Position numbers and translations under genes: made by a program
NCBI RefSeq assembly: GCF_002835465.1
Contig: NZ_PIZM01000002.1
Span: 62,001-126,000, forward strand
From: Psychromonas sp. psych-6C06
GTDB taxonomy: Bacteria > Pseudomonadota > Gammaproteobacteria > Enterobacterales > Psychromonadaceae
Direction: 5' to 3'
Length of the DNA stretch: 64,000 nucleotides
The notes under the pieces: generated by a model
What the model saw: the letters and a program-made list of their open reading frames with translations, nothing else
Databases searched by the model: none
Told to the model about the DNA's origin: nothing
In this document: positions 12,062 to 55,979 of the stretch, piece after piece
Layout of the letters: the number at the start of each line of letters is the position of its first letter
Numbering within the stretch: position 1 is the stretch's first letter

Positions 12062-13165
12062 TTAGAAGCTTAGCGATGCGGTAATAAAGTGGATACGATT
12101 GTTACTGTATTCCCCATTTAATGGGCCTGAGCCTGATATTTGCGCATCGCCTAATGATTGGTACTGATATGCTAGCCCCAATACCATGTTGTTTTTTAGC
12201 TTTTTCTCAGCACCAAGGCCGAATCGCCATTGCGTATCTAGCGGCAATGCATGACCACGATTATCTGCAGCTAGCGGACTACTGTCTGCACTTATCCCCG
12301 AGTGCAGTCTCCAGCTATCTAGTTGATAACTCATGGCAACACCACCACCATATGTATCATCGTAACCGTTATTGAACTGGCTCCATTGTTGCCAATTCAC
12401 ACTGGCCATCATGCTTAGTTGTGCAGTAAGTTGGTGTTGTAAGCCGAATTCAACACTTTGTGGCCAGTTAAACGACTGCTCAACAGATCCTTCTAATATT
12501 GAAAAGGCCAAATCATGCTTTGCCCCCGCGTTGTAATTCACGCCAACATGTGTGCTGTCATTGATTTGATACAGTGCAGATAATGCAAAGGAAGGAGTCC
12601 AATCATCGGCCTCAATTTCAGTATTCTTTGTAGCTGCGGAAAGCGTGCTATTAACGGCTGCATACTGGGCAATGATAGAGCCACCTAAGGATAAATTAGC
12701 GTTCACTTGGTAAGAAGCAGAAGCCGTTAAATTTATCGTCGTAATACTGCTTGTATCAACCAGACCTAAACCAGTAAGACCATTATCATAATCAAGCCCT
12801 AAACCACCTGGAGCATGAAGTGCAACACCGGTCACCCACTGCTCATTGAGTCGCTTCGCGTAGGAAATATGCGGTATTATTGCACCATCACTGCCGTTAC
12901 TAGTGAGTTCATTTTCGCTTGCTTGGAAGTCATTATTTACATCTAAATATTGCACGCCAAACATAAAGCTTGAATCGTCAATACCAGACAAAGCAGCCGC
13001 ATTGCTGACCGTAGCAGAGGCATCTTGGTTGTTAGTAACATTACTCACGCCAGCTGTTGCAGTGCTTTGAGTCGTGCCAATTTGCGACAAACTCAACCCA
13101 CCAGCATGACTCAAAGAACTGAGGGACAATAGTGCAATTGAAAAGGGATAGTTAATTTTTATCAT
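12062..13165 (-). CDS. FadL/OmpP1/TodX-family outer-membrane transporter
   Basis: A 367-residue outer-membrane beta-barrel. A signal peptide (cut after SLSHA) is followed by the FadL N-terminal hatch-like segment with an NNQDASATVSNAAALSG stretch equivalent to the family's NPAAL motif. Next come alternating amphipathic strands and a C-terminus ending in aromatic residue F (HFITASLSF), as barrel proteins do. The family moves hydrophobic molecules such as long-chain fatty acids or aromatics across the outer membrane by lateral diffusion. At 367 residues it is shorter than E. coli FadL and nearer the OmpP1/short FadL group. AGGT lies ten bases before the ATG. It heads the operon with the small membrane protein and the HlyD-like adaptor, suggesting import or export of a lipophilic compound. 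Confidence 0.85.
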   Translation of the reverse strand: MIKINYPFSIALLSLSSLSHAGGLSLSQIGTTQSTATAGVSNVTNNQDASATVSNAAALSGIDDSSFMFGVQYLDVNNDFQASENELTSNGSDGAIIPHISYAKRLNEQWVTGVALHAPGGLGLDYDNGLTGLGLVDTSSITTINLTASASYQVNANLSLGGSIIAQYAAVNSTLSAATKNTEIEADDWTPSFALSALYQINDSTHVGVNYNAGAKHDLAFSILEGSVEQSFNWPQSVEFGLQHQLTAQLSMMASVNWQQWSQFNNGYDDTYGGGVAMSYQLDSWRLHSGISADSSPLAADNRGHALPLDTQWRFGLGAEKKLKNNMVLGLAYQYQSLGDAQISGSGPLNGEYSNNRIHFITASLSF

Positions 13166-13181
13166 AAGAGACCTGTATAAA

Positions 13182-13237
13182 TTGGTAACCGGAGCTTATT
13201 TTAGGCCTCATTCCCTTGCTTTATAGCGCGTTACCAA
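13182..13237. promoter_or_regulatory. spaced dyad TTGGTAAC ... GTTACCAA upstream of the fadL-like gene
   Basis: TTGGTAAC (13182-13189) is repeated in inverted orientation as GTTACCAA (13230-13237), 40 bases apart, inside the 200-base region upstream of the FadL-like gene. Two identical half-sites about four helical turns apart could bind a looping regulator. No regulator is assigned. Confidence 0.3.
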
Positions 13238-13367
13238 GAATGTTTATGCCGTTAACGAGATTGAATAAAGTATTTTAAAAGGTGTTAAACAAAATAAGCA
13301 CGCTAACCAGCGCTTTAACTGATTAGCATGCGCAACCTAAGCGTTGTTAAACAACAGCTTTAGAAGG

Positions 13368-14939
13368 TTATTTCATTACTTTTTGACGAACTTGCTCAAG
13401 TTGTTGCAATTTACCCTGCAGCATATAAGTGTTCTGATTAAAGTTACCCGGATTTAAAACTTGGCTTTCTTGACGTGGGTAATCTGGTAATGTACCGATA
13501 AACTCTTGGACCTGATTACCAACGGGGACAAATAACCACATATTGTCAGCCATCCAACGCAAGTACATACCAGATTCATGTGGTGCTTTTTCAAATGGGT
13601 CGGCGCGTAAATGTACTACTTGTGGCCAGTTTGATTGGAAACGAACGGCATCTGTAATGTTACCTTCCATCGTTGCAAAAGAAACTTTAAAGTCACCTGT
13701 ACGCACTGCGTTTAGTTCAGCATTGGCCGAGAAATATAACATCCCGTCACGTGGCCCTTCTGCCTCTTTACCTTCAAAGTATGGCAAGAAGTTATAGCCA
13801 TCCATGTGGACACGCCAGTTCGTGCCGTTATAGTTCGCACCTTTATCAGATTTTAATTTCTCAACGACTTTGTCATCTCCTGCGGCAGCCATTAGCGTTG
13901 GCAACCAATCTTTATGAGACATAATATCGTTAATCTTAGTCCCCGGCTTAATCACCCCCGGCCAACGCACTAACTGAGGAACACGCATACCACCTTCAAA
14001 TGTCGTTCCTTTTTCACCATGGAAGAACGTTGCACCTCCATCAGGCCATGACACCGTTTCAGCACCATTATCGGTAGAATAGATAACGATAGTATTGTCG
14101 GTAATACCTAACTCATCGATTTTATCTAATAAAATACCAACATGGTCATCGTGCTCTATCATTCCATCAGCATAAATAGAGATACCTGAGATACCTTGAT
14201 ATTTCTCCTGTAAACGTGTCCAAACGTGCATACGTGTGGTGTTATGCCAAATAAAGAATGGCTTCTTTGCTTTCACCGCTTTTTCCATAAAGGCAAGCGA
14301 TTCTTCTAAAAACTCTTCATCAGCGTTTTCCATGCGCTTACGCGTCATTGGGCCGGTATCTTCAATCTTGCCATCAGCTGTCGACTTAATAACGCCACGA
14401 GGGCCATATTTCTTAACGAATTCAGCATCTTTAGGGTAATAGTAAGTTTCAGGCTCCTCTTCTGCATTGAGGTGATAGAGGTTACCAAAGAACTCATCAA
14501 AACCATGTGCAGTAGGAAGGTGCTTATCTTGGTCACCCATATGGTTTTTACCAAATTGCGCAGTCATATACCCCTGCTCTTTTAGAAGGTCAGCAATAGT
14601 GGGTGTCCAATCGGGAATACCCGCTTGCGATCCCGGCATACCAATAGTCAATAAACCGGTACGAAATGGTTCTTGGCCTGTTAAAAATGCAGCACGACCA
14701 GCGGTACATGATTGCTGACCATAGTGGTCAGTAAACAGTGCACCTTCGTTAGCGATACGGTCGATGTTTGGCGTTTGGTATCCCATCATGCCATTGTTGT
14801 AAGCACTGATATTAAAGATACCAATATCGTCGCCCCAAATAGCAAGGATATTAGGTTTATCAGCGGCATTTGCAACCGTGGTTGCGGCTAACAAGCTAGT
14901 GCATAAGGCGGTTTTATTAAAGCGATATGATTGTGCCAT
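13368..14939 (-). CDS. periplasmic arylsulfatase-type sulfatase, Cys-type CTAGR active site
   Basis: A 523-residue exported sulfatase. The signal peptide is cut after VANA, then PNILAIWGDD supplies the metal-binding acidic pair D37/D38. The sulfatase signature C78-T-A-G-R lies at 78-82; C78 is the residue converted to formylglycine. The downstream QFGKNHMGD block carries the conserved Lys and His, and STDNGAE the later metal ligands. The +2 position is Ala rather than Pro, which fits modification by an anSME radical SAM enzyme such as the one at 24049-25338 better than by aerobic FGE. It would remove sulfate from an ester in the periplasm; the substrate is not identified. GGAG precedes the ATG. 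It is divergent from the MoxR/Bat operon, with a palindrome between them. Confidence 0.92.
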   Translation of the reverse strand: MAQSYRFNKTALCTSLLAATTVANAADKPNILAIWGDDIGIFNISAYNNGMMGYQTPNIDRIANEGALFTDHYGQQSCTAGRAAFLTGQEPFRTGLLTIGMPGSQAGIPDWTPTIADLLKEQGYMTAQFGKNHMGDQDKHLPTAHGFDEFFGNLYHLNAEEEPETYYYPKDAEFVKKYGPRGVIKSTADGKIEDTGPMTRKRMENADEEFLEESLAFMEKAVKAKKPFFIWHNTTRMHVWTRLQEKYQGISGISIYADGMIEHDDHVGILLDKIDELGITDNTIVIYSTDNGAETVSWPDGGATFFHGEKGTTFEGGMRVPQLVRWPGVIKPGTKINDIMSHKDWLPTLMAAAGDDKVVEKLKSDKGANYNGTNWRVHMDGYNFLPYFEGKEAEGPRDGMLYFSANAELNAVRTGDFKVSFATMEGNITDAVRFQSNWPQVVHLRADPFEKAPHESGMYLRWMADNMWLFVPVGNQVQEFIGTLPDYPRQESQVLNPGNFNQNTYMLQGKLQQLEQVRQKVMK

Positions 14940-15043
14940 AGATACTCCGGTAAAGTGTTTAGTGACTGATTTAAGAATATATAGAATCTATTTCTTAGAC
15001 GATTGGATTATATGAAGTTGGGAACTTTAGTCACTGAATAGAC

Positions 15044-15064
15044 GGTATAACCTTTGGTTATACC
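15044..15064. promoter_or_regulatory. perfect palindrome between sulfatase and moxR genes (candidate operator)
   Basis: GGTATAACC (15044-15052), three T, then GGTTATACC (15056-15064): a perfect nine-base dyad in the 190-base divergent promoter region. The right half with flanks, TTTGGTTATACCTAA, recurs with one change at 25439-25453 in front of the sulfatase-maturase gene. It is therefore a candidate binding site for a shared regulator, possibly the LysR protein encoded between the two regions. Confidence 0.5.
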
Positions 15065-15129
15065 TAAGCAGGGTAGGAATAGTTTAAGATGAGCATTACA
15101 AATAAATTAACTGATTTGGGAGAGATATC

Positions 15130-16122
15130 GTGGACACACCCTTAGCAAAAATTAACGCTGTTATCGCGCAAGTTCAACAGTCTGTGATTGGCCAGCCTCA
15201 GGTTATTAACGCCCTCGTCATTGGATTGCTAACCAAGGGGCATGTTTTGCTAGAAGGCCTGCCAGGTACCGCCAAAACACGCTCTATAAAATCATTAGCA
15301 ACCTCTATCAATGCTTCGTTTGGCCGTGTGCAATTTACGCCCGATTTATTACCCTCCGATATTACAGGGACCATTCAATATCAAGATAATAACGGCAAGC
15401 CACTCTTAACTTTTCAACAAGGGCCTTTATTTAATAACCTCGTGTTAGCCGACGAAATAAACCGCGCGCCCGCTAAGGTACAGGCAGCATTATTAGAAGC
15501 AATGGCTGAAAATACCGTAACCGTTGGCGATAGTAGCCATAAACTCGGTGAAATGTTTATGGTATTAGCAACACAAAATCCCGTTGAGCAAGAGGGGACT
15601 TATCCGTTGCCTGAAGCGCAAATGGATCGCTTTATGATGAAAGTGACTGTCGACTATCCCAATGATGATGTCGAGCTCGATATTATCCGCTTAATGCGAC
15701 TTGAAGAAAATTCACAGCAAAATACACAGCCCCCTATAAAGCAACAAGTAGATCATAAAATAGATCCACAACTATTTTTTACTGCACGCCAACAAGTAAG
15801 TGAGGTTCGTGTATCTGACATCATCGAGCGATATATGGTTGCACTAGTAATGGCAACACGTGATCCACAACGTTACCCAAATACATCATTAGCCAACTGG
15901 ATAAAAACAGGCTCTAGCCCACGCGCAACGATTGCACTAGATAAATGCGCGCGCGCCCATGCTTGGTTAGCCGGACGTGATCATGTACTACCAGATGATG
16001 TCCGTAGCATTGCACATGCAGTCTTATCTCACCGTATTACCTTAAGTTATGATGCTTTAGCAGAAGATATCTCTAGCCAACGCGTGGTGGATACCCTATT
16101 AGATAACGTACTCATTGGGTAA
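15130..16122 (+). CDS. MoxR-family AAA+ ATPase
   Basis: A 330-residue MoxR ATPase with Walker A GLPGTAKT (43-50), Walker B LVLADE (104-109), the sensor-1 segment [18 protein letters not shown] and the family's C-terminal AAA_lid domain. The start is GTG at 15130, four bases after GGGAGAG. MoxR proteins act as chaperone-like ATPases that load or activate partner proteins together with von Willebrand A proteins. It is the first gene of six transcribed rightward (MoxR, DUF58, DUF4381, VWA, VWA/TPR, BatD-like) and is divergent from the sulfatase gene. That context suggests a role in folding, metal loading or surface handling of periplasmic enzymes, with the sulfatase the nearest candidate client. 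Confidence 0.92.
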
Positions 16123-16127
16123 AGGCC

Positions 16128-17072
16128 ATGACTAGATTTATGCGTGACAATGCGAACACAGAAGCAAAAGATCAACGTATCTACACTGATTATCGGCGTT
16201 TACTTGCACTTCAGCCGTTAAGTCACTCCTTTCGTTTACTGCCAAAATGGCAAGCGAAAAGCTTAATGACTGGTCGCCATCAGTCACAGTTTCGTGGTCG
16301 AGGCTTAAACTTTGAAGAACTGAAACATTATCAAGTAGGCGATGATATTCGTAATTTGGATTGGAAAGTTACCCTTAGAACCGGTCAACCTCACGTGCGT
16401 TTATACAGCGAAGAAAAAGATCGTAATGTGGTGGTATTGGTTGACCAAGGCGCAAACATGTTTTTTGCTTCAACTCATACTCTTAAATCCGTGGTCGCGG
16501 CAGAGGTTGCTTCATTAGTTGCATGGCGTGTCTTGCGTGAAGGAGATCGTATCGGCTTTTTAATCAAAGAAAGCGATAATCACCAATGGTTTGCACCAAT
16601 GCGTGGCCAGCAACACCTTTTGCACCTGCTAAAAAAACTAAGTGAAAGTAATCAAAGGTTGAATGCTCAATCCGACACTAAAATATCTTTTTCCGAGACT
16701 TTAATACAATTATCGAAGCGCGATTTACGCCAAGCAACGGTGATTTTACTGAGCGATTTTTTAACTCTCAACGAAACAGATATGCGCACTTTAAAAAGTA
16801 TTCAACGCAGTAATGATCTATTAACCATTCGAATATCCGACCCAATGGAGCACAGTATTCCTGAGCAGCTACAGTGGGTCATGGGAGATGGGCAATCTCA
16901 GTTTAACCTTGAGCAGCAACAAATAACCAAGGTTAACCAACATTTTTCCCGCACCACCAGCGAACAAGCTAAAAAGCTAAACCAGTTAATGGCGCGCCAT
17001 AATTTACCATTACTTGAGCTAAGTACTGACGGTAACCATTTAAACCAACTAAAACGTTTAATTGGAGGTTAG
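16128..17072 (+). CDS. DUF58 domain protein
   Basis: A 314-residue cytoplasmic protein of the DUF58 family that regularly accompanies MoxR ATPases. The diagnostic block RGRGLNFEELKHYQVGDD followed by IRNLDW lies at about residues 58-82. It is followed by a VWA-like fold whose MIDAS-like start VVLVDQGANM lacks the usual DxSxS serines. The start ATG at 16128 is five bases after the moxR stop, with AAGG just before it. It probably acts as an adaptor between the MoxR ATPase and the membrane VWA proteins. No enzymatic function is known for the family. Confidence 0.88.
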   Translation: MTRFMRDNANTEAKDQRIYTDYRRLLALQPLSHSFRLLPKWQAKSLMTGRHQSQFRGRGLNFEELKHYQVGDDIRNLDWKVTLRTGQPHVRLYSEEKDRNVVVLVDQGANMFFASTHTLKSVVAAEVASLVAWRVLREGDRIGFLIKESDNHQWFAPMRGQQHLLHLLKKLSESNQRLNAQSDTKISFSETLIQLSKRDLRQATVILLSDFLTLNETDMRTLKSIQRSNDLLTIRISDPMEHSIPEQLQWVMGDGQSQFNLEQQQITKVNQHFSRTTSEQAKKLNQLMARHNLPLLELSTDGNHLNQLKRLIGG

Positions 17073-17073
17073 T

Positions 17074-17655
17074 ATGCAACACACACCACCCTCAACTTAT
17101 ATTTTACGAGATCTTATCGATGTGCAAGCGGCCCCCTCAGTATCGTGGTGGCCGGGTTTTGAACAATTACCCATTGGTTGGTGGTTTTTAATTGCGCTTG
17201 CATCTCTTTTGATATTCGCTCTTTCTGCAATGGCATTGAGGCATATTTATAAAAATCGATATCGTCGTGAAGCCTTAAATGCAGTACGTGACATTATGCT
17301 TAACGCGCAATATAACAACGCAGGTAAACATCCACAAAATCAAAATCAACAGATTTCTGAGCAACTTTTTTATACCTTAAAACAGGTGCTATTTTATCTT
17401 GATCCGCAAACCGCAAAGCTGAACGATAATGCGTTTTTTAACAAACTCGATGCATGCTGTCATCAAGGTGAGCAAGGGATCTGGCAAACAACCTTAACAG
17501 AACGTTGGATGAATAGTTTGTATCATCCCAATAGCGATTTAAACGATGCCGATATCAGCTGTTTAGTAAAAAAAAGCAAACAATGGATAAAAAATCACCG
17601 TAATCATTTCCCATTACGAAGCAACTTTTTATCAGTTCTTTTTAGGGAGCAATAA
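17074..17655 (+). CDS. DUF4381 single-pass membrane protein
   Basis: A 193-residue protein with a short periplasmic N-terminus, one membrane helix (about 34-54, rich in Leu/Ala/Ile) and a cytoplasmic helical domain. The order N-terminal IxLPxxPSWWP-type segment, then WWFLI helix, is characteristic of DUF4381, found only in MoxR/VWA operons. The ATG at 17074 is chosen because GGAGG (17064-17068) precedes it; a TTG twelve bases upstream lies inside the DUF58 stop region. The DUF58 stop at 17072 is one base before this start, so translation is coupled. It probably anchors the complex at the inner membrane. Confidence 0.8.
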   Translation: MQHTPPSTYILRDLIDVQAAPSVSWWPGFEQLPIGWWFLIALASLLIFALSAMALRHIYKNRYRREALNAVRDIMLNAQYNNAGKHPQNQNQQISEQLFYTLKQVLFYLDPQTAKLNDNAFFNKLDACCHQGEQGIWQTTLTERWMNSLYHPNSDLNDADISCLVKKSKQWIKNHRNHFPLRSNFLSVLFREQ

Positions 17656-17656
17656 G

Positions 17657-18727
17657 ATGTTTTCAATCACGCTTGCATATCCATGGATGCTACTATTACT
17701 CCCACTTCCAGTGTTGGTAATGCAATTTACGCGCGCCTACAAAAGCAAACAAACAGCAATCAAAGTGCCCTTTTTTAATGCACTTATCAACAGCCTTGGC
17801 GAGCAACCAAGCGAAGGAGCGAGTTTACTTAAAGCGCGTCTTTGGCAGCGTATTGTTTTAGTACTGAGTTGGAGCTGTTTAATTGTTGCAATAGCAAAAC
17901 CGGTGCAATTAAGTGAACCACAATTACGTGAACAATTAGGCCGAGATGTAATGATTGCTTTAGATTTATCTGGGTCAATGAATGAACAAGACTTTATTAA
18001 CGACAACGATAAAGCCGATAAAAACGCAACAAAAAAAATGAGTCGTATTGATGTTGCGAAACAAGTACTGGAAGATTTTTCAAACACACGTCAAGGAGAT
18101 AGATTAGGCCTTATTCTTTTTGCCGATGCTGCTTTTTTACAAACCCCGTTTACTGCAGACATTGATGTTTGGCAAACTCTATTAGCTCAGTCAGATACAG
18201 GGATGGCAGGTCAAAGCACGCATTTAGGAGATGCAATCGGCCTTGCAATTAAGGTATTTGAACAGGCGGAGCAAGATAAACAAAGTCAGCCAAACAACAA
18301 TGAAAAGGTGCTTATTTTATTAACCGATGGTAACGATACAGGCAGCTTTGTCAGCCCAATTGATGCAGCTAAAGTCGCTGCAGTCAAAGGTATTCGCATA
18401 CATGTGATCGCCATGGGCGACCCACAAACAGTTGGTGAGCAAGCCTTGGATATGCAGACTATTAAACGCATCGCAAAAGAGACCGGCGGTCAAACTTTTG
18501 AGGCACTGGATAAACAACAACTCACACAGGCCTATGAAACAATCTCAGCGTTAGAGCCACAACTCTTTAACAGTACCAGTTATCAAATAACGCAGACACT
18601 ACACCACTACCTTGTGCTTTTTATTCTCGCGCTTTATTTAATCGCCTTTAGTGTCAGCTTAGTGTTTTCTAGGCAGAGAGATAACGCTAAGACACTTGTA
18701 GCACAATCAGTAAAACAGGGAGAATAG
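17657..18727 (+). CDS. BatA-like membrane protein with von Willebrand A domain
   Basis: A 356-residue protein: N-terminal BatA-type helix (about 7-25), a second helix (66-85), a VWA domain (about 95-305) with an intact MIDAS metal site D103-L-S105-G-S107 and later TDGND, and a C-terminal helix (about 315-335). The topology places the VWA domain in the periplasm. In the Bacteroides Bat (aerotolerance) system and other MoxR loci, paired VWA proteins form a membrane complex with BatD; the molecular role remains unsettled. AGGGAG precedes the ATG, one base after the previous stop. All metal-binding residues are present, so it should bind Mg/Mn-dependent ligands. Confidence 0.88.
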   Translation: MFSITLAYPWMLLLLPLPVLVMQFTRAYKSKQTAIKVPFFNALINSLGEQPSEGASLLKARLWQRIVLVLSWSCLIVAIAKPVQLSEPQLREQLGRDVMIALDLSGSMNEQDFINDNDKADKNATKKMSRIDVAKQVLEDFSNTRQGDRLGLILFADAAFLQTPFTADIDVWQTLLAQSDTGMAGQSTHLGDAIGLAIKVFEQAEQDKQSQPNNNEKVLILLTDGNDTGSFVSPIDAAKVAAVKGIRIHVIAMGDPQTVGEQALDMQTIKRIAKETGGQTFEALDKQQLTQAYETISALEPQLFNSTSYQITQTLHHYLVLFILALYLIAFSVSLVFSRQRDNAKTLVAQSVKQGE

Positions 18728-18728
18728 A

Positions 18729-20402
18729 ATGTTTGATAACACTTTTATCAACCTATTATGGACCAATTTTCATTTTATTCGCCCACAAGTTTTACTGCTA
18801 TTGTTGCCATTTTCAGCCATTATTTATTTACGTTGGCAACGTGTTCAAGCGGCCACATCACAACAACATTTACCACCTCATTTACAAAAGGTGTTGACGG
18901 TTGGAGAACAAGGTTGGCGAAAAATGCTGCCACTTAAAATACTCAGTTTGTTGTTGTTATTAACCATAATCAGTAGTGCAGGCCCAACATGGACGCGTGC
19001 AGAATCGCCCTTCAATGAAGATAAAGGCGCCTTAGTGGTGATCGTGGATCTAAGCGAATCGATGCTCGAAAACGATATAGCGCCTAACCGATTAATACGT
19101 GCTCAACATAAAATAATCGACCTGATAGAACAACGTGATGGTGGCAAAACTGCGCTTATCGCCTATGCGGGATCAGCACATGTTGTGATGCCATTAACTT
19201 CAGATAAACAAGTATTTATGCCCTTTGTGAGCGCCCTTTCTCCAGAAATAATGCCTCGCGAGGGAAAACAAGCAGAACAGGCATTACCTTTAGTTGATCG
19301 CTTGTTAAGCGACGAAAAGAGCGCCAGTATTCTATTAATAAGCGATGGCATGCCACCAGAAACAATTTCCGCATACGAGCAATACTTTGATCAGTCAGAT
19401 CACCAATTATTACTGCTCGGCGTCGGCGATAATAAGCGTGAAGCGACCATTCCATTCGATTTACGTTCATTGCAAAATTTAGCGGATAAAACCAACGCTA
19501 GTTTGCATTTACTAAGCATCGATAACCAAGATATAAAGTGGTTACTCAGACAGATACAACGCCATATACAAATTAGTAGCGATAGCATCATGCCTTGGCA
19601 AGATATGGGATATTACCTATTGTTTCCCATCGCTCTCTTATTGCTACTTTGGTTCAGAAAAGGCTGGCTTGTTCAGTGGTCGCTATTACTGATTATTTCC
19701 GCTAATGCAGTGATGCTACCTAGCACTAGTTATGCTTCACAAGTGCAACAAAGTGCACAACTTGAGCAAAGCTTATGGTCTGAAGGTAAACAGTTTTGGT
19801 CTAATCTTTGGTTGACCCCAGACCAACAAGGAGAGCGCGCGTTTCAAAATAAAGACTACTTAAGCGCTGCGCAGCATTACCAAGATCCTCTGCGTAAAGG
19901 TATTGCATATTATTATGCAGCTCAATTTAAAGCGGCTCATATCAGCTTTATGCAACAACCAACCGATCTCAGTCTTTTTTATGCGAGCAATGCACTCGCA
20001 AGGCAAAGGGAATATATTGCGGCCAGAAACTTACTCGTCGACCTTGACAAGAAAATGGAGCAAGAGCACCTCACTTCTCAATTGGCGTTACATACAAAAG
20101 TTAGGAATAACTTACAAGCAATTCAAGCGATTATTGATGATATAAACCGTTATAGCGAAAGCCAAAAAGGCACCACAGATGGCCTTGAAGAATCCTTTGA
20201 GGTAGGTAAGGACGATCCTATTACCTCCGATGGATATGACGAAATTTCACCCGAAGAAGTTTTAAATAAAGAAACATTAAATGCACGTGAAATCTTGGGC
20301 AGTGAAGCATTGGCTGACAAATGGTTAAAACGTGTACAAGCGGATCCGAAACGGTTTTTACAAGCTAAGTTTTACCTGCAACATCAAGCACAGGAGCAAT
20401 AA
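18729..20402 (+). CDS. BatB/BatC-like membrane protein: VWA domain plus TPR region
   Basis: A 557-residue protein: membrane helices at about 20-36 and 70-86, a VWA domain (about 100-280) with MIDAS D107-L-S109-E-S111 and a later SDG, one or two helices at about 290-335, and a C-terminal periplasmic TPR-like region (about 350-450) followed by an acidic tail. Fusing a BatB-like VWA domain to a BatC-like TPR domain is a common gammaproteobacterial arrangement. GGGAG precedes the ATG, and the gene starts one base after the BatA-like stop. The TPRs probably recruit client or partner proteins in the periplasm. Confidence 0.87.
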   Translation: MFDNTFINLLWTNFHFIRPQVLLLLLPFSAIIYLRWQRVQAATSQQHLPPHLQKVLTVGEQGWRKMLPLKILSLLLLLTIISSAGPTWTRAESPFNEDKGALVVIVDLSESMLENDIAPNRLIRAQHKIIDLIEQRDGGKTALIAYAGSAHVVMPLTSDKQVFMPFVSALSPEIMPREGKQAEQALPLVDRLLSDEKSASILLISDGMPPETISAYEQYFDQSDHQLLLLGVGDNKREATIPFDLRSLQNLADKTNASLHLLSIDNQDIKWLLRQIQRHIQISSDSIMPWQDMGYYLLFPIALLLLLWFRKGWLVQWSLLLIISANAVMLPSTSYASQVQQSAQLEQSLWSEGKQFWSNLWLTPDQQGERAFQNKDYLSAAQHYQDPLRKGIAYYYAAQFKAAHISFMQQPTDLSLFYASNALARQREYIAARNLLVDLDKKMEQEHLTSQLALHTKVRNNLQAIQAIIDDINRYSESQKGTTDGLEESFEVGKDDPITSDGYDEISPEEVLNKETLNAREILGSEALADKWLKRVQADPKRFLQAKFYLQHQAQEQ

Positions 20403-20403
20403 C

Positions 20404-21780
20404 ATGAATCATTTATTATCAATGAACGGCTGTCGCTCCTTAATTTTGCTATTGGCTATGTTAATCACCCCCACAACCCTATGGGCGATAAGTATTAGTG
20501 ATTTGCAGCAGGACAAATTGTTAAGTATTGAAACGTGGTTATCTACTGAAACAACCGCTAACCGTGACACAGAAAATAAACAGGGCAGTGCACAAAACAA
20601 AATACTTACCGCGGCAATTGGTGAGCAAGTTGTTTTAAATATACAGTTAGGTACAAATCGCTGGTTTACTCGCGCGCCAAACATTCCTGAAATTGAAATT
20701 GCAAATGTGATGAATCGTCAGCGTCAGCCTTTTTCGGTACATAGTAGCAAACGAATTAATGGCGAAACGTGGTCATTTCAATTGTGGCAAATATCACTAC
20801 TGCCTCAGAGCTCAGGCCATTATGAACTCGGAGAGTTAGCGCTAGATATCGAAGTGATGTCACCTAATGATGGGAAAGTTGCTGGTACGGTGCGAACTCA
20901 GGCACAAGGTTTCAAAGTAATATTACCCGATGCAAACTTGGTTGAAGAAAACTGGTTTAGCGCCTCACAGGTAAACATTAAACAGCAATGGCACCAATCC
21001 AATAACAAGATAATGGTCGGCGATAGCATTCGTCGCGACGTTACCATTGAGGCTTCAAATACTTTATCCGTATTACTTCCGAATGTTTTACAACAGCAAG
21101 AAAATACACAATTTCAAACTTATGAGACACCCGCTGTTTTACAAGACCATGAACATCGTGGCGATTACCTATCAACACGCAAAGAGCAACAAACCTATAT
21201 CCTGCAACAAGGCGGAGAAGTCTCGTTTCCCGATATCGTCGTTACTTGGTGGGATACAAAAAATCAACAACTGGTAAAACAGGTAATACAAGGTAAAACG
21301 ATCAACGTCACCCACACATTGTCGTCGTGGTTACAACACCATCGTCGCATTTTAGTTTTCTTTACCATCGCCTTGCTATTTATATTGGCATCTATTTTAA
21401 AGTTACGTCAGCACCTAAGGCGCCATGGCAAACCAACATGGTGGTTATACTTCAAAGCAGTTAATGCACAAAATTGGTCATTATCACTCGCATTACTGTA
21501 TAAAAAAATTCGTAATAATAGTGGTCAACTCACCCTTAAAAGAGGGATCACTTCATCTCAACAACAATCAGCTAAAAATTTGCAACAAACGATCAGTCTG
21601 CCAGATAATAATCATCAGATAGCTAAACGCTGTGTTTTTTCGATGTGGTTTGCAGTGCGTCAACAACATCGAAATGTAAACAGTGCCTTCAAAATATGGC
21701 GTCATGGCATACTCCCACGCGCTCTGCCTCAACTAAAAAGAGGCCTTCAAAAGCGAGGGATAGATAAACTAAAACGATAA
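20404..21780 (+). CDS. BatD-like protein
   Basis: A 458-residue protein with an N-terminal signal (hydrophobic to TTLWA), two periplasmic immunoglobulin-like BatD segments (about 40-320; e.g. IGEQVVLNIQLG and VGDSIRRDVTIEA), a membrane helix at about 318-338 and a basic cytoplasmic tail of about 120 residues. BatD is the usual partner of the paired VWA proteins in MoxR/Bat operons. ATG 20404 is selected since CAGGAG lies nine bases before it and it follows the previous stop by one base; an in-frame start 72 bases upstream would overlap the VWA/TPR gene. It is the last gene of the operon. Confidence 0.82.
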   Translation: MNHLLSMNGCRSLILLLAMLITPTTLWAISISDLQQDKLLSIETWLSTETTANRDTENKQGSAQNKILTAAIGEQVVLNIQLGTNRWFTRAPNIPEIEIANVMNRQRQPFSVHSSKRINGETWSFQLWQISLLPQSSGHYELGELALDIEVMSPNDGKVAGTVRTQAQGFKVILPDANLVEENWFSASQVNIKQQWHQSNNKIMVGDSIRRDVTIEASNTLSVLLPNVLQQQENTQFQTYETPAVLQDHEHRGDYLSTRKEQQTYILQQGGEVSFPDIVVTWWDTKNQQLVKQVIQGKTINVTHTLSSWLQHHRRILVFFTIALLFILASILKLRQHLRRHGKPTWWLYFKAVNAQNWSLSLALLYKKIRNNSGQLTLKRGITSSQQQSAKNLQQTISLPDNNHQIAKRCVFSMWFAVRQQHRNVNSAFKIWRHGILPRALPQLKRGLQKRGIDKLKR

Positions 21781-21848
21781 AAGTGGCCATTAACTTAACA
21801 GGTCAGTAAAAAAATAGTTTATGCTTAACAGTCAATGAGTTGAATGAA

Positions 21849-22772
21849 ATGAGCGCTATGAAAAATACTGATCTGAACCTTATCCCTATCTTTGTCGCTA
21901 TTTATGAAGAGCAGAGTTTATCGAAATCAGCGGATCGTTTAGGAATTACGCAACCTGCGGTTAGTAAAGCATTAAAACGATTGCGTGATATTTATAATGA
22001 CACTCTATTCCTGCGTGAAAACAGCAGCATGTTACCCACGCCTCGCGCCATTGATATTTACCCAGCTATATCAGCGGCATTAACCAATTATACGAGTACA
22101 ATCAATAATGAAGGTACTTTTAATCCGGCTACCGCTGAACGGGTTTATTCCTTTGCAGTTATCTCTGGTTTAGGGCACACCTTTTTACCCGCTTTTTTCA
22201 GTAAACTGCGCGAACATGCACCACACCTACATTTTGAAATTCACCCTAAGTTCTCTAAAGATACTGAATTAGATTTACGTCTACAGCGCTATGATTTTGT
22301 TATCGATGCCGAACATTTTGCACCGACATTTATTAAATCACAGCACCTCTTTGATGAAGAGATCGTCGCGGTGATGAATGCAGACCACCCAAGAATTGCA
22401 GATGAGATGAGCCTTGAGCAGTTTTTAGCAGAACAACATACTGTTGTATCAGGTTGGCAAGCCCGCAGTAGTATGATGAGTGGTGCACAAATTTCAGAAT
22501 TAGACTCACGCAAAATTGTCTATCGTAGTAGCGCGATTACTGAGTGTTTACCACTTGTAGAACAAACCGATATTCTTGCTTTGTGTTCAAAACGTATTGT
22601 CGAAAAACATCTATCTGTTTATAACATCAAAGCATTACCTGTACCGCTTGATATAAACAAAATCAGTATCAACTTGTATTGGCATCCATCAAGAAATACC
22701 GACCTTGGCCATGTGTGGCTTCGAAAATTATTAATCAAAGAAGGGATCGCGTTTAAAAATTCAACGATGTAA
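21849..22772 (+). CDS. LysR-family transcriptional regulator
   Basis: A 307-residue LysR regulator. The N-terminal winged helix covers about 8-66 (DLNLIPIFVAIYEEQSLSKS, then GITQPAVSKALKRLR), followed by a LysR substrate-binding domain (about 95-300). The start is uncertain: ATG at 21849 or 21858 (three codons shorter), neither with a strong ribosome site. It follows the BatD-like gene by about 70 bases on the same strand and lies between the sulfatase/Bat divergon and the maturase/lipoprotein divergon. It is the only classical transcription factor in this region, so it is the leading candidate to bind the shared TTGGYTATA palindromes. The effector is unknown. Confidence 0.9.
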   Translation: MSAMKNTDLNLIPIFVAIYEEQSLSKSADRLGITQPAVSKALKRLRDIYNDTLFLRENSSMLPTPRAIDIYPAISAALTNYTSTINNEGTFNPATAERVYSFAVISGLGHTFLPAFFSKLREHAPHLHFEIHPKFSKDTELDLRLQRYDFVIDAEHFAPTFIKSQHLFDEEIVAVMNADHPRIADEMSLEQFLAEQHTVVSGWQARSSMMSGAQISELDSRKIVYRSSAITECLPLVEQTDILALCSKRIVEKHLSVYNIKALPVPLDINKISINLYWHPSRNTDLGHVWLRKLLIKEGIAFKNSTM

Positions 22773-22811
22773 TTTCCCAGGGGTAAAAGAGCGTAATAAA
22801 GCAACAATGGA

Positions 22812-22973
22812 TATACCAATTACAGTAAATAGCTGTTCTATTTTACAGCTTTAAACAACTGACTTGCACGCTAACATTTTGCATTATTAAACAGAAGCTT
22901 ACGTAAATAACACCTTGAATAAAGCTGTTTTTCTACATCAAGTTTAAAGCGCATATTTAATGTAATTGGTACT
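22812..22973. repeat. MITE-like intergenic repeat, copy A
   Basis: An element of about 160 bases bounded by inverted ends TACCAATTACA (22814-22824) and TGTAATTGGTA (22961-22971). Read on the minus strand, it matches the element at 32060-32224 over much of its length, including the shared blocks GTAAAATAG and CAGCTATTTA near one end. It codes for nothing visible and lies between the LysR gene and the convergent HEAT/TPR gene. Confidence 0.65.
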
Positions 22974-23008
22974 CGTGAAAACGATTATATCCCTCTTATA
23001 AAAGTGAT

Positions 23009-24013
23009 TTAATTAAGCAACTTTTCATGCAAATCATCGATCACTTCCGGCGGTGCAATATCTGCTAAGGTGTTAATGCACTGTTCACTGTCTTGATGCT
23101 TATTACGCGCATAAATATCACACAATGCATATAAATTTTCAGCTGAACCTGACACGAGATAAGCATGTTTGAAGGAATTAATGGCCAACTCCGTATCAAT
23201 TGGCTCCTGTAATACGCCATTTAAATACCAATAATAAGCGTTTTCCGGCGAAAACTGTGTCGCTTTTTGCATCGCAATAGCCGCTCTACCTTTTTGCTCT
23301 AGACGTACCAGAGCCAGTGCTTGAGCATAATATAAAGCTGCGTTTTGGTTATCAAAATTAATCCCTTGTTCAAGGATACTAAGGGCATTGTGTTCATCCC
23401 CTAGCGCATGATAATTCAGCGATGCATTTAAAAATAACGTTGCATTCTTTTGCTCTGATTCAAGCAGGTTTTTATAAAGGTGTTGCGATGCCTCAAAACG
23501 AAAGGTCAAACGATAGATATCTGCGAGTAAAAGTTGCTCTGAATAACTCTTCTTATCACTTAATTGCATGACTAATTTATCAGCATGCTGTGTTAGTTGC
23601 GCCTGCTCATCCATAGCCAATAAGTCATAGTCTTTAAGTAAATACACAAGTGCATCACCACGGACTGATTGCACGGGATCATTTAATAAAGGCGAAACCA
23701 TGCGGTAACGATGCTTTAATGGATACGGGCTTGCGCCAGCAATAGCCGCTTGTCGAATTAAAGCGTGTTCATCCTTGAGTGCTCTAGCAACGGCTACAAG
23801 GCTATTTTGATTGGGATGTTGACTAATAAAGTGTAATGCTTGAACACGTTTTTCAACAGGTTCATTACTGTTTTGCGCAATGAATGCCATGCTCTCTGGT
23901 GTTGTTTCCGCAGTTGTCATTGACGTTGCACGCGCAGTTAGGCTCATACTTAATAACAGTAAACAGCTGATAACAAAGGACGCAGTACTAAACATTGGTC
24001 GGTTAAATATCAT
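23009..24013 (-). CDS. periplasmic HEAT/TPR-repeat protein
   Basis: A 334-residue exported helical-repeat protein. A signal peptide (about 1-30, ending LTARA) is followed by HEAT-like repeats (about 38-125, e.g. LVAVARALKDEHALIRQAA and DPVQSVRGDALVYLL) and TPR units (about 155-310, e.g. LFLNASLNYHALGDEHNALS and AALYYAQALALVRLEQKGRA). ATG 24013 is chosen because GAGGT stands seven bases before it; a GTG three codons upstream lacks a site. It is 35 bases downstream of the sulfatase-maturase gene and co-transcribed with it. Such repeats bind proteins, so a chaperone or scaffold role for the matured sulfatase is plausible but not shown. Confidence 0.75.
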   Translation of the reverse strand: MIFNRPMFSTASFVISCLLLLSMSLTARATSMTTAETTPESMAFIAQNSNEPVEKRVQALHFISQHPNQNSLVAVARALKDEHALIRQAAIAGASPYPLKHRYRMVSPLLNDPVQSVRGDALVYLLKDYDLLAMDEQAQLTQHADKLVMQLSDKKSYSEQLLLADIYRLTFRFEASQHLYKNLLESEQKNATLFLNASLNYHALGDEHNALSILEQGINFDNQNAALYYAQALALVRLEQKGRAAIAMQKATQFSPENAYYWYLNGVLQEPIDTELAINSFKHAYLVSGSAENLYALCDIYARNKHQDSEQCINTLADIAPPEVIDDLHEKLLN

Positions 24014-24048
24014 AGTGAACACCTCGAAATAGGGACTTATGTAGTGGG

Positions 24049-25338
24049 TTAGTGATTTTGCATTATTTGATCGTTGTATTTACCGTGTGCAACGCGATGC
24101 CCAGTATGGCGAAGAATATGTGCAAGTGGTTTATCGATATAAGCAAAAAACTTTTTCCAGCCAGCACAAAGGTAGTTAAGACCTGGCTCACCATCACGAT
24201 TACTGATGAAACGATTTTTAGGGCATTCACCATAACAAGCAAATTGATATTCACAACGCTGGCATTGCGAATTCATATCGCGCGATTTTGCAAAACCAAA
24301 TGCCTGCTGTTTTTTAGAAAAAGCCATTTTATCCAGCGCAGTTTCATTAATGTTCCCAATTTTATATTCTGGATAAACGTAATGATCACATGCAAACACA
24401 TCACCATTAGGCTCTAACGCGAGCCCTTTTCCGCAAACTTCGCCCAACGTGCATAATGGGTTCTTGTTGCCCATCCAAGCCTCTACACTGGCTTCAAAAT
24501 ATTGCACCATCACTTTACCAAAATCGTTTAACACCCACTCATTAAACACCGTGATTAAAAAATCCCCCCAAGCGTGATCAGACACACACCATGGTTCCAT
24601 GATGGACTCAGCGTGATCTGGCGCTAGACGCGCATCACCTTGACAATATTGCGCAGCCTGTTGATTGCTTTGTGGCGCTTGGGTACGAAAACTCTTTTGT
24701 TCAACAATTGGGATAAACTGCATCTGTGGAGACTTCACCACATCTCGTAAAAAACGGTATAACGCCAAAGGATTTTTACTGGTGACGTCATTAACACAAG
24801 TGAGTGTGGCAAAGCGCACCTCATACTTATGGAGCAACGCCACAGCGGCCATTACCTGCTTAAAAGTACCGCGACCAGCACGATTAGTTCGATAGGTATT
24901 ATGCATCAGCTCAGGGCCATCGATACTTAAGCCCACAAGAAAATTATTTTCTTTTAAGAAAATACACCATTGCGCGTTCAGTAATGTGCCGTTAGTTTGT
25001 AAATCATTAGAGATAGCTACCCCTTCTGGGCAATACTTGTGCTGTAACTCAACCACTTTTTTAAAGTAGTTAAGACCTAACATTGTAGGCTCCCCACCCT
25101 GCCATGAAAAAATTATTTCCGGCGTATTTTGCTGTTCAATATATTGTTTAATATAGGTTTCAAGCAATGCTTCATCCATTTCCGGCGAGCAGCCTTTTTT
25201 GTACTCTAAGAGATCCTGCTTGCTCAAATAGTAGCAATAATCACAATCAATATTACATACTGCACCGATAGGTTTAGCCATCACATGCATACGCTTTGAT
25301 GCCTTACCGTTATATTGTGGAACGTTAATTATGGTCAT
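24049..25338 (-). CDS. anaerobic sulfatase-maturing enzyme (radical SAM, SPASM)
   Basis: A 429-residue anSME. The radical SAM motif C28-NID-C32-DY-C35 binds the catalytic [4Fe-4S] cluster. SWQGGEPT is the SAM-binding GGEP motif. The C-terminal SPASM region has the spaced cysteines CTLGEVCGKG, FACDHYVYPE, CQRCEYQFACYGEC and a final C for two auxiliary clusters. These enzymes oxidise the active-site Cys or Ser of sulfatases to formylglycine in the cytoplasm before export, without oxygen. The ATG at 25338 follows AGGGG; a start ten codons upstream would lack a site. The obvious client is the CTAGR sulfatase at 13368-14939. It precedes the HEAT/TPR gene in an operon and is divergent from the FGE-like lipoprotein. 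Confidence 0.93.
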   Translation of the reverse strand: MTIINVPQYNGKASKRMHVMAKPIGAVCNIDCDYCYYLSKQDLLEYKKGCSPEMDEALLETYIKQYIEQQNTPEIIFSWQGGEPTMLGLNYFKKVVELQHKYCPEGVAISNDLQTNGTLLNAQWCIFLKENNFLVGLSIDGPELMHNTYRTNRAGRGTFKQVMAAVALLHKYEVRFATLTCVNDVTSKNPLALYRFLRDVVKSPQMQFIPIVEQKSFRTQAPQSNQQAAQYCQGDARLAPDHAESIMEPWCVSDHAWGDFLITVFNEWVLNDFGKVMVQYFEASVEAWMGNKNPLCTLGEVCGKGLALEPNGDVFACDHYVYPEYKIGNINETALDKMAFSKKQQAFGFAKSRDMNSQCQRCEYQFACYGECPKNRFISNRDGEPGLNYLCAGWKKFFAYIDKPLAHILRHTGHRVAHGKYNDQIMQNH

Positions 25339-25438
25339 ATCAACCCCTATTAATATCTTTACAAACAAGCCAGTGCACTTTATTTACGTACTTTATGAGC
25401 TAAATTGTAAGTGAATAACCCCATCACCATAAGCCCTA

Positions 25439-25462
25439 TTTGGCTATACCTAATATAACCAA
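25439..25462. promoter_or_regulatory. TTGGCTATA-N5-TATAACCAA dyad between maturase and lipoprotein genes
   Basis: TTGGCTATA (25440-25448) and TATAACCAA (25454-25462) form a nine-base dyad with one mismatch around CCTAA. The 15 bases TTTGGCTATACCTAA match the sulfatase/moxR site (15054-15068) at all but one position. It lies in the 195-base divergent region and probably serves both genes. Confidence 0.5.
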
Positions 25463-25533
25463 TAGTTTGCTTATCAGACGCGCCAATCTGCTTATAATCA
25501 TGGTTCATCACATTGCTGCCACTAGGGGTTAAT

Positions 25534-26352
25534 ATGCAACGCGCTAAGACTAATTTATTCAACAGATATTCAAGCCAATTTATGCCCATACTCATTTCAA
25601 TGGCATTATTTATATTGGCCGGTTGTAGCCACTCTAACGCCACACCAGAGCATCCAATTGCAGCTCAAATCATGTCTGATATGGTACTTGTTGAGGGGGG
25701 CACATATATGATGGGCTCAGATTTGCCACAGGCAAAAAAATCTGAACAGCCAGCGCATCAGGTGAGTGTTGATAGCTTTTATATCTCTAAATTTGAAGTG
25801 ACTCAGGGTTTATTTGAATCGGTAATGGGGGGCTCTAACAGTTTTTTTGTGGATGAGAATGTACCGGTTAATAATTTAAGTTGGCAACAAGCGATATATT
25901 TTATCCAACGGCTCAATACTCTTACGGGTGAAAACTTTCGTTTGCCGACAGAAGCAGAATGGGAGTTTGCAGCCATCGGGGGCAACCAGTCAAAAGGCTT
26001 TAAATACAGTGGCTCAAACAATATTGATGATGTCGCATGGTATTCGGAAAACGCCAATAACAGCGCTCATGCAGTGGGTTTAAAAGCGCCCAATGAGCTC
26101 GGTTTGTATGATATGACAGGTAATGTTGGTGAATTTGTCATTGATCAGTTCGATGAAAATTTTTATAAAAACTCTCCCCTAAACAACCCTAATAATGCCC
26201 AACATTCCGACATTAATTTAACCCATAAAACTACCCGTGGGGGGAGTTTTGCTTACGGTGAAGATGAGTCTGAAAACTTCCGTAGAGATTTCGCAAGCCA
26301 ATCAATATTGATGTCCGACTTAGGCTTACGTTTAGCCAAAGATATTAATTAA
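25534..26352 (+). CDS. lipoprotein with FGE/SUMF1-fold domain lacking the catalytic cysteines
   Basis: A 272-residue lipoprotein. A long signal ends in lipobox LAGC (C31 region), followed by an FGE-sulfatase/SUMF1 domain: VEGGTYMMGSD at the start, FYISKFEVTQ, FRLPTEAEWEFAA, GLYDMTGNVGEFV and TTRGGSF near the end. In active formylglycine-generating enzymes the segment after RGGS carries two cysteines that bind copper; here that segment (RGGSFAYGEDESENFRRDF) and the rest of the mature domain contain none, so it cannot be an FGE. Related folds bind ligands or assist enzymes. ATG 25534 follows AGGGG. It is divergent from the anSME gene and shares its palindromic control region. It may hold or guide the sulfatase at the membrane. 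Confidence 0.85.
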   Translation: MQRAKTNLFNRYSSQFMPILISMALFILAGCSHSNATPEHPIAAQIMSDMVLVEGGTYMMGSDLPQAKKSEQPAHQVSVDSFYISKFEVTQGLFESVMGGSNSFFVDENVPVNNLSWQQAIYFIQRLNTLTGENFRLPTEAEWEFAAIGGNQSKGFKYSGSNNIDDVAWYSENANNSAHAVGLKAPNELGLYDMTGNVGEFVIDQFDENFYKNSPLNNPNNAQHSDINLTHKTTRGGSFAYGEDESENFRRDFASQSILMSDLGLRLAKDIN

Positions 26353-41974: not shown

Positions 41975-43702
41975 CTACAATCCAAAAACAACAACGATCA
42001 TCGTCACCGCAGTCAAGCTATAAGCAATGCTGACGGGAACGCCAATCTTAATAAAATCATTTAATTTATATTGCCCAGCATTAAATACCATTAAGTTTGT
42101 TTGATAGCCATAGGGGCTAATAAAGCTGGCACTTGCACCAAAAGCGACGGCCATGATAAAGGCCATTGGATTGGCATCAATACTCATGGCTAACCCATAA
42201 GCGATAGGAAAAACCAATGCAGCGGCAGCATTATTGGTTACTAACTCAGTCAATAACCAAGTAATAATATAAACCGCAATTAAGGCCATCAAAGGGCTAA
42301 ACGCTTGATTATTTTCGCTAATCAGTTGTGTAAAGCTATCGATAACGCCACTATTTTGTAATGCATAGGAAAGTACAATCGCAGATGAAATAATGACCCA
42401 AATATCTGTCGGAAAACGACGTAACAATTCATTGGTACTAAAACATCCCGTTAATAAAAGAATGCCAAGCAGCAATAAAACTGATTTAAACAGTGGAAGG
42501 ATACCAAGCGCAGAGACAACAATTGCAGTTAAGAACCCAGCAACAGCTAGCCATTCTTTCGCGCCAGACAAACGGGAGTCCAGTTCAACATCGGAGAGTA
42601 AAATAAAATTCTTACGAATATTACGACGCGATTTAAAATCTTCCCCCACAGCTAACACTAAAAAATCACCGGGCTTAATTTTTAAACGACCAATTTTGCC
42701 CGATACCTTCTCACCATCACGCTTAATAGCAACAACGGCAGCATCAAATAGCGAACGAAATCCCACCTGCTTAAGCGTTTTACGGGTAAGGATACTTTCC
42801 GGCCTAACTACCACTTCGCGTAAATTATCGATGGATAAACCATTGTTTTCTGCAAATATTGATAGGCCATCAAACATATTCAACTGGCTAACTTTTGAGA
42901 TATCGCCACTAAAAATAAGTTTATCGTTTGCTTGTAAAATTTCGCTAGGCGCAATTGCACTCAACAACCTTTCACCACGTAAAATTTCTACTAAGAATAA
43001 AGATTGCAAATGACGCAATCCATTTTGCTCAACACTTTTCCCTACTAAACTGGAGTCGGGACTAATTTTCGCTTCAATAAAATAGGATTCAGCCTTTACA
43101 TTTTGCGCTTTACGATCGGGCAAAAAGTGCCCACAAAAATAGAGCGTGAATCCACAGGCAAATACCAAACATAAACCGACTAGAGTGAAGTCAAAAAAAC
43201 CAAGAGAGGGTAAATTAGCGTCGAGTACTAAACTGTTTACAATGAGATTAGTAGAGGTACCTACCAAGGTTAATGTCCCCCCTAAAATAGCAGCATAGGA
43301 TAGAGGTATCAATAACTTACTTGCAGAGTGATGGGGGTTATTACGAATTGGCGCGAGCATAGTTGAGACGACAGCGGTATTATTAAGTAGCGCTGATGAA
43401 ATAACAGTAAAGCCAAATAAACGGGTCCAAGTTGCTTGATAACTTGGCTTAATAACTTTCATTGCAACTAAACGCAACAAACGCGTTTTTTCTAATGCAA
43501 TAGAGCATAGCATTAATAATATTAAGGTTAATAAACCTTGATTAGAAAGACTTTTTATCACTTGCTCAGTAGAAACCATATCGGTTGAAAATAAGGCTAA
43601 TAAAGCAATACCAAACACCAGACTAGGACGTTGTTGATATTTTATTAAACCGATAATAGTAGAAAGGAATACAGCGAGTACGAAATAGGATTGAAGTGTC
43701 AT
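41975..43702 (-). CDS. SLC13/DASS-type sulfate permease with TrkA-C domains
   Basis: A 575-residue transporter: about twelve membrane helices split by two cytoplasmic RCK/TrkA-C domains (about 205-285 and 295-375). Motifs SSALLNNTAVVS, GGTLTLVGTSTNLIVN and, in the second half, ELVTNNAAAALVFPIAYGL plus a PYGYQTNLMV element are the paired hairpin sequences of the divalent-anion/Na symporter family. Position between cysC and cysN makes sulfate the probable substrate; Na-driven uptake suits a marine cell. The frame starts at ATG 43702, inside a repeat-rich spacer. Confidence 0.88.
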   Translation of the reverse strand: MTLQSYFVLAVFLSTIIGLIKYQQRPSLVFGIALLALFSTDMVSTEQVIKSLSNQGLLTLILLMLCSIALEKTRLLRLVAMKVIKPSYQATWTRLFGFTVISSALLNNTAVVSTMLAPIRNNPHHSASKLLIPLSYAAILGGTLTLVGTSTNLIVNSLVLDANLPSLGFFDFTLVGLCLVFACGFTLYFCGHFLPDRKAQNVKAESYFIEAKISPDSSLVGKSVEQNGLRHLQSLFLVEILRGERLLSAIAPSEILQANDKLIFSGDISKVSQLNMFDGLSIFAENNGLSIDNLREVVVRPESILTRKTLKQVGFRSLFDAAVVAIKRDGEKVSGKIGRLKIKPGDFLVLAVGEDFKSRRNIRKNFILLSDVELDSRLSGAKEWLAVAGFLTAIVVSALGILPLFKSVLLLLGILLLTGCFSTNELLRRFPTDIWVIISSAIVLSYALQNSGVIDSFTQLISENNQAFSPLMALIAVYIITWLLTELVTNNAAAALVFPIAYGLAMSIDANPMAFIMAVAFGASASFISPYGYQTNLMVFNAGQYKLNDFIKIGVPVSIAYSLTAVTMIVVVFGL

Positions 43703-55977: not shown

Positions 55978-55979
55978 AT

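Follow-up and report, generated by a model that had tools for sequence, protein, structure and literature searches.

What does a MoxR/Bat operon act upon when it lies back to back with a sulfatase gene, and how does that sulfatase acquire its formylglycine? Both questions are raised by a stretch of 64,000 nucleotides from Psychromonas sp. psych-6C06 (contig NZ_PIZM01000002.1, positions 62,001 to 126,000; hereafter the window), in which positions 12062–26352 hold a sulfatase, a MoxR/Bat operon, an anaerobic sulfatase-maturing enzyme (anSME), a short HEAT/TPR protein and a lipoprotein with the fold of the formylglycine-generating enzyme (FGE). On balance we think it probable that this island is one version of a recurrent module for sulfatase biogenesis, in which the MoxR/Bat complex would remodel the sulfatase, most likely for calcium loading. 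The clients of many MoxR/Bat operons are unknown, and the comparisons below name a likely one for this operon type.

A MoxR/Bat operon linked to sulfatases

The sulfatase gene (13368–14939, minus strand) encodes a Cys-type S1 sulfatase (PF00884, E 5e-51). The residue that becomes formylglycine is Cys78, the first of CTAGR in the motif SCTAGR, and the protein is 85–89% identical to its orthologs in four genomes (G009, G021, G065 and G114; such numbers are our labels for genomes, as L, C and f numbers are for loci, contigs and families). D37 D38 and D290 N291 are putative calcium ligands, standing at the places of the residues that bind calcium in the Pseudomonas aeruginosa sulfatase, and all four columns are invariant across 12 sulfatases. 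The N-terminus is signal-like by eye, and a hydrophobicity scan flagged no signal segment in this protein.

Across a gap of 190 bp, the divergent MoxR gene (15130–16122) opens a single run of six genes on the plus strand. MoxR itself is an AAA+ ATPase (PF07726, E 8e-60) with the Walker A sequence GLPGTAKT and the Walker B sequence LVLADE. It is followed by a DUF58 protein (16128–17072; PF01882), a DUF4381 protein with one hydrophobic segment (17062–17655; PF14316), a BatA-like VWA protein that we call VWA1 (17657–18727; PF00092), a second VWA protein (18729–20402; PF13519) and a BatD-like protein with two hydrophobic segments (20404–21780; PF13584), whose open reading frame is listed from 20332 and whose start near 20404 was deduced from the translation. 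VWA1 has three hydrophobic segments and scores below the cut-off of the BatA model; the DxSxS motif reads DLSGS in VWA1 and DLSES in the second VWA protein. The Pfam domains and motifs thus bear out the first-pass annotation of a CTAGR sulfatase divergent from a MoxR-DUF58-DUF4381-VWA-VWA-BatD run. The TPR part that it placed in the second VWA protein gives no Pfam match.

The same annotation had proposed that the sulfatase is the client of this Bat complex. We searched 197 genomes of the order for relatives of VWA1, the sulfatase, the lipoprotein, anSME and the octaheme protein described below. The sulfatase family gave 83 matches in 40 genomes, of which 77 were read at the formylglycine position and six distant ones were left unread, and VWA1 gave at least 150. 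A sulfatase-family gene lies within 15 kb of 24 of the 35 VWA1 matches at E 1e-60 or better (a cut chosen after the list was seen, with the window's own match included), where about 0.6 would be expected, as against 4 of 115 weaker ones among the matches listed. The linkage observed spans several families and several gene orders. The weaker matches apparently represent mainly one generic copy per genome, which in the present genome lies at C1:213574. The sulfatase-linked type is defined here by E-value alone. VWA1 of the window is 40–62% identical to the other matches within the cut and 39% identical to the second copy in its own genome.

Several observations weigh against the proposed module. 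For eleven of the 35 operons no member of the sulfatase family lies within 15 kb; three of these operons adjoin a gene of a DUF1254/DUF1214 cluster and four stand behind a clpB-like gene (named by eye). From the side of the sulfatases, 43 of the 77 that were read have no MoxR gene within 12 kb in the fetched stretch, and three of the six Ser-type sulfatases that do have one (G112, G129 and G140) are accompanied only by weaker VWA1 relatives. Clear orthologs of the lipoprotein are furthermore limited to 14 of the 197 genomes. Bat operons without a nearby sulfatase, which the first-pass annotation had named as evidence against its proposal, do therefore exist, both among the 35 and, almost throughout, among the weaker matches. 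The sulfatase nonetheless remains the likely client, and this Bat type is mainly, though not exclusively, a sulfatase partner.

Two groups of sulfatase-free operons deserve mention in their own right. At L075, L076 and L077 (genomes G077, G114 and G055), Bat operons lie beside a DUF1254/DUF1214 cluster, of which one member was checked against Pfam, and DUF1254/DUF1214 proteins are possibly another client family of this Bat type. At L066, L068, L069 and L083 (family f2) the Bat operon occupies a fixed place behind clpB-like and sodium/alanine symporter-like genes, both named by eye, and no sulfatase was found in the 20 kb read.

A MoxR gene stands no more than 12 kb from 28 of the 62 Cys-type sulfatases and from 6 of the 15 Ser-type ones, and since it accompanies both alike, the complex probably serves a step that they share and not the formylglycine chemistry. 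Known systems suggest what that step may be. A MoxR/VWA pair inserts calcium in methanol dehydrogenase, as described in PMC12657314, and another inserts iron in nitric oxide reductase, as described in PMC9976466. Like Mxa (methanol dehydrogenase), NorQ/NorD, CoxD/E, CbbQ/O and RavA/ViaA, the operon considered here would pair a MoxR ATPase and VWA partners with a metalloenzyme client beside them; it differs from these in that the proposed client is a sulfatase and in that the operon comprises DUF58, DUF4381, two VWA proteins and BatD. With Bat operons it has the gene set MoxR, DUF58, VWA and BatD in common. The sulfatase-linked operon is a new variation on known MoxR/Bat systems. No published link of MoxR, or of a multiheme or octaheme protein, with a sulfatase was found in the open-licence PMC literature.

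For the window we infer the following biochemical steps from family membership and analogy. In the cytosol, anSME would turn Cys78 of the sulfatase into formylglycine, and the sulfatase would then be exported, as its signal-like N-terminus suggests. A MoxR/Bat complex, predicted to consist of a cytosolic MoxR ring and the membrane VWA, DUF4381 and BatD proteins, would remodel the sulfatase, most likely letting the active-site calcium load, by analogy with the metal insertion described for methanol dehydrogenase and nitric oxide reductase; calcium loading, or a remodelling step coupled to it, is our best guess for its role. The short HEAT/TPR protein may be a sulfatase-binding adaptor, and the FGE-fold lipoprotein would be an accessory.

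The sulfatase nucleophile and an octaheme protein

The first-pass annotation placed an enzyme that makes formylglycine close by, and this identification was upheld. The gene at 24049–25368 (minus strand) encodes a radical SAM/SPASM sulfatase maturase (PF04055 and PF13186) that scores 479 bits with the anSME model TIGR03942, against a cut-off of 349, and has both the SPASM domain and the CxxxCxxC motif (CNIDCDYC). The gene for the short HEAT/TPR protein (23009–24022) follows 26 bp downstream on the same strand. This protein of 337 residues has TPR matches, an N-terminal hydrophobic segment and no CxxCH motif.

A search with the short protein gave 46 matches, of which 27 lie in open frames of 747–814 residues. 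In these longer relatives eight CxxCH motifs precede the HEAT/TPR repeats, and we named the proteins OCT, for octaheme cytochrome-HEAT/TPR; one more distant relative shows seven CxxCH motifs. Eighteen octaheme proteins align in their C-terminal part with the short protein, which by this homology is the repeat half of an OCT without the heme domain. It had been proposed, with the lipoprotein, as a periplasmic guide of the sulfatase. The role of a mere guide was rejected, as the full-length relatives carry eight hemes and accompany Cys-type sulfatases; the association of the protein with sulfatases stood, in that the set of Cys-type sulfatase, anSME and HEAT/TPR protein recurs in 12 cases.

OCT and anSME are partitioned according to the nucleophile of the neighbouring sulfatase. 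Of the 77 sulfatases read, 62 have Cys and 15 have Ser at the formylglycine position, and neighbours were counted within 12 kb, in the fetched stretch. Among the Ser-type sulfatases, 14 have anSME nearby, none has the short HEAT/TPR protein, and one has an OCT relative with seven hemes, 6 kb away. Among the Cys-type sulfatases, 28 have OCT, none of these with anSME; 12 have anSME, all with the short HEAT/TPR protein; and 22 have neither. The 12-kb limit affects this separation, because six islands of family f21 hold both OCT and anSME, and the sulfatases there lie farther than 12 kb from the anSME gene.

The partition was also observed at the level of whole genomes, for which the best five OCT candidates were scored in each genome of this sample (the best four or five in all OCT searches). 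Full-length OCT occurs in 28 of the 29 genomes that have a Cys-type member, in none of nine Ser-only genomes and in 7 of 157 without the sulfatase family (Fisher p = 6e-8 for 28 of 29 versus none of nine, related genomes not being independent). The exception, G157, has anSME and the short HEAT/TPR protein by both of its sulfatases, and all nine Ser-only genomes have anSME. Two genomes whose distant sulfatase members are of unread type (G082 and G098) both have OCT. Among the 29 Cys-type genomes, 11 gave no anSME at E 1e-20 with the window anSME as sole query. No FGE cysteine pair was found in the 31 of 32 PF03781 matches that were read (from 28 of the 29 genomes, all but G157; the match at G134:C1:3405650 was unread). 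For 11 Cys-type genomes the searches thus gave neither anSME nor a true FGE, and every one of these carries OCT. Among the 28 genomes with OCT, 17 have anSME as well.

A tree of 76 sulfatases requires four changes for the Ser type, on well supported branches. Of 4 independent pairs, about 3.6 associate anSME with Ser and about 3.0 set Ser against the presence of OCT in the genome; the direction is as expected, but with four switches between Cys and Ser a sign test has too few cases to reach 0.05. The Cys-type sulfatase of G060, which has OCT and stands on a long branch, is sister to the Ser-type sulfatases of G047 and G175, which have anSME, so that both traits differ at once. The 10 sulfatases that have anSME and the short HEAT/TPR protein within 4 kb make up a single clade, and the association of these two genes may therefore be one event.

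The surroundings of OCT were read in named loci, which are the best 80 of at least 299. Sulfatase-type genes are the most frequent neighbours, occurring in 35 of the 80, and the MoxR operon is present in 11. The 52 sulfatase-type genes in these loci comprise 45 of the Cys type (including L217), seven that were unreadable and none with Ser; 45 of the 80 loci, many of them short contigs, show no sulfatase.

The Psychromonas genome itself holds a second Cys-type sulfatase (C8:186437–190777, L094), followed by OCT and a PF01663 phosphodiesterase-family protein; no MoxR operon was found in the 20 kb read at this locus. A HAD-family phosphatase (L087:1496–2506) has relatives beside OCT or sulfatase genes, also in G178, G009, G083 and L182, and its relatives occur in 9 of the 80 OCT loci.

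OCT as a candidate formylglycine-generating system

FGE and anSME are the two main known systems for making formylglycine according to PMC8379841, which also notes that E. coli is suspected of having a third, as yet unidentified. In other bacteria, OCT is a candidate for one more such system. We raise tentatively, and as compatible with the module proposed above, the reading that formylglycine in exported Cys-type sulfatases is generated by OCT itself. In such a system the repeats would hold the sulfatase, an open heme would oxidise the cysteine thiol and the other hemes would carry the electrons off; in the window, where anSME would make formylglycine, only the repeat domain would remain. The partition described above favours this reading: within the order, OCT is all but constant in Cys-type genomes and absent from Ser-only ones, it is present in all 11 Cys-type genomes in which neither anSME nor a true FGE was detected, it lies within 12 kb of 28 Cys-type sulfatases, none of which has anSME within that distance, and, in the named loci, its commonest neighbour is a sulfatase-type gene, none of which was read as Ser.

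Genomes from outside the order extend the comparison. In a sample of 223 genomes of the class, the sulfatase family occurs in 12 outside the order, and every site read in these is Cys. OCT was found in five of these 12 and in 7 of the 210 others, and anSME in none of the 12. Four of the seven sulfatase genomes without OCT (G210, G342, G343 and G372) have an FGE with the cysteine pair beside the sulfatase. Some of these genomes do not fit: G385 has both OCT and an FGE with the cysteine pair, and three genomes with Cys-type sulfatases (G205, G272 and G300) yielded no anSME, FGE pair or OCT, the first two being fragmented assemblies and the third 99% complete. In 25 isolate genomes chosen from OCT loci, anSME is present in six, and no FGE pair was found in the PF03781 matches read (the sole match is unread in G425, G430, G433 and G437, and G428 has none). 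Of the 90 matches in the PF03781 search that underlies these comparisons, 69 were read. One of the named OCT strains, Microbulbifer guangxiensis L3, gave no anSME match, and its three PF03781 matches lack the FGE cysteine pair. A PF01663-type gene adjoins the sulfatase in G205 (L345) and G272 (L346); the sulfatase locus of G300 is L344.

The model of the Vibrio renipiscarius OCT has a mean pLDDT of 89.9. A fold search with this full-length model is filled by TPR proteins, which the repeat half matches, and the heme domain was therefore modelled by itself (pLDDT 84.6). The heme domain matches OcwA with Z 18.4 over 330 residues at 24% identity, an undecaheme cytochrome with Z 13.0 and the sulfite reductase MccA with Z 8.4; NrfA and cytochrome c554 match weakly, with Z under 6. 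A heme-domain fold is thus common to OCT and OcwA, MccA, NrfA and cytochrome c554. What sets OCT apart from them is its eight CxxCH motifs, the beta-rich insert that separates hemes 1 and 2, and the C-terminal half of HEAT/TPR repeats, and by the searches made it is related to neither anSME nor FGE. The beta-rich part spans residues ~78–154, and structures aligned only to about that region reach Z 4.9 at most. Across 46 OCTs the eight CxxCH motifs are invariant and only six further histidines are, so that an invariant second histidine is available to no more than six of the hemes. In OcwA the distal sites of hemes 2 and 5 are open, and the protein both reduces nitrite and oxidises hydroxylamine, as described in PMC6703420. 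Heme 2 of OCT aligns with a CxxCH motif of OcwA that is probably its second, the preceding stretch not being displayed. Open-site chemistry in OCT is plausible.

Against a formylglycine-generating OCT stand several points in addition to the three genomes without any of the systems. OCT is found together with FGE in G385, with anSME in 17 of 28 genomes and even in the same island in family f21; 45 of the 80 named OCT loci show no sulfatase, although many of these are short contigs; and four switches between Cys and Ser are too few for significance on the tree. A different role for OCT has a similar, less than even, chance of being correct: it may keep the cysteine of the exported sulfatase reduced, or take electrons from the desulfated product, while another enzyme makes formylglycine. 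The proteins that the heme domain resembles in structure are reductases or electron conduits, which agrees with such a role, as do the OCT loci with no linked sulfatase. A role in the substrate pathway, however, predicts no split by nucleophile, and the contrast of G060 with G047 and G175, which differ at once in nucleophile and in having OCT or anSME, speaks against it, with the reservation that G060 stands on a long branch. Furthermore, among the neighbour clusters, only some of which are annotated, OCT was the one recurrent redox protein to be recognised.

Formylglycine would be made by anSME in the window and possibly by OCT elsewhere. Combining this with the sulfatase-biogenesis module leads to a broader proposal, which we offer as a speculative one: a third formylglycine system in which exported OCT would oxidise the cysteine of exported sulfatases and pass the electrons to the periplasmic redox chain, beside a metal-loading MoxR/Bat complex. 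The anSME and short HEAT/TPR protein of the window would then be a derived form, in which a cytosolic radical enzyme has replaced the heme domain. If OCT does make formylglycine, it would be categorically new; it would explain how Cys-type sulfatases are activated in these bacteria, perhaps after export, and could give a new aldehyde-tagging tool.

Conservation of the island and its neighbours

The FGE-fold lipoprotein (25513–26352, plus strand; PF03781, E 6e-39) is encoded divergently from anSME. Its single cysteine, Cys38, is that of the lipobox (LAGC), and the protein therefore lacks the C-x4-C pair of a true FGE, as do all of its orthologs that were read. It had been described as catalytically dead, and the sequence agrees. 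A function as FGE was rejected on this ground, and the best NCBIfam model, GldK, gives 89 bits against a cut-off of 350.

Clear orthologs of the lipoprotein (E 3e-50 or better) are those of the 14 genomes mentioned above, which include the present one, and any match at E 1e-3 occurs in 74 of 197. The first-pass annotation had suggested looking for conserved co-occurrence of these families, and in the 13 other ortholog genomes, examined in stretches of 27–40 kb, the full set of six recurs in seven: sulfatase, Bat operon, LysR regulator, lipoprotein, anSME and TPR protein lie within about 25 kb. Two further genomes have sulfatase, lipoprotein and Bat operon close together with no anSME, one has lipoprotein and sulfatase, one has lipoprotein, anSME and TPR protein, and two have the lipoprotein alone. 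Many sulfatase/Bat loci are without the lipoprotein. That the island is a coincidence, a housekeeping Bat operon that happens to adjoin a horizontally transferred sulfatase island, is very improbable: the patchy spread (no lipoprotein ortholog in 12 genomes of the same genus) and the 11 unlinked operons would suit it, but not the 24 linked ones in several families and gene orders, nor the presence of another Bat operon elsewhere in the same genome.

The LysR-type regulator (21840–22772, plus strand; PF03466 and PF00126), which lies 3′ of the Bat operon, is an island member missing from the earlier description, and its homologs in seven islands are 43–49% identical. Position 12062, previously given as the start of the sulfatase, instead begins a FadL/Toluene_X-type outer-membrane protein (12062–13165, minus strand; PF03349, E 7e-33). 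This is treated here as a neighbour of the module, and no FadL match was found in the 13 stretches around lipoprotein orthologs, two of which end inside the sulfatase gene. A role of the island in anti-phage defence was rejected, with no PADLOC match for eight of nine proteins and weak viperin matches only for anSME.

Elsewhere in the window, positions 41975–43702 encode a CitMHS transporter with a sodium:sulfate symporter match. Positions 53863–63272, where the DNA is partly of low GC content, hold a sulfotransferase-domain gene adjoining an open reading frame of 1999 amino acids with FkbM methyltransferase and glycosyltransferase domains, together with a UDP-glucose/GDP-mannose dehydrogenase gene, and are perhaps a locus for a sulfated surface polysaccharide.

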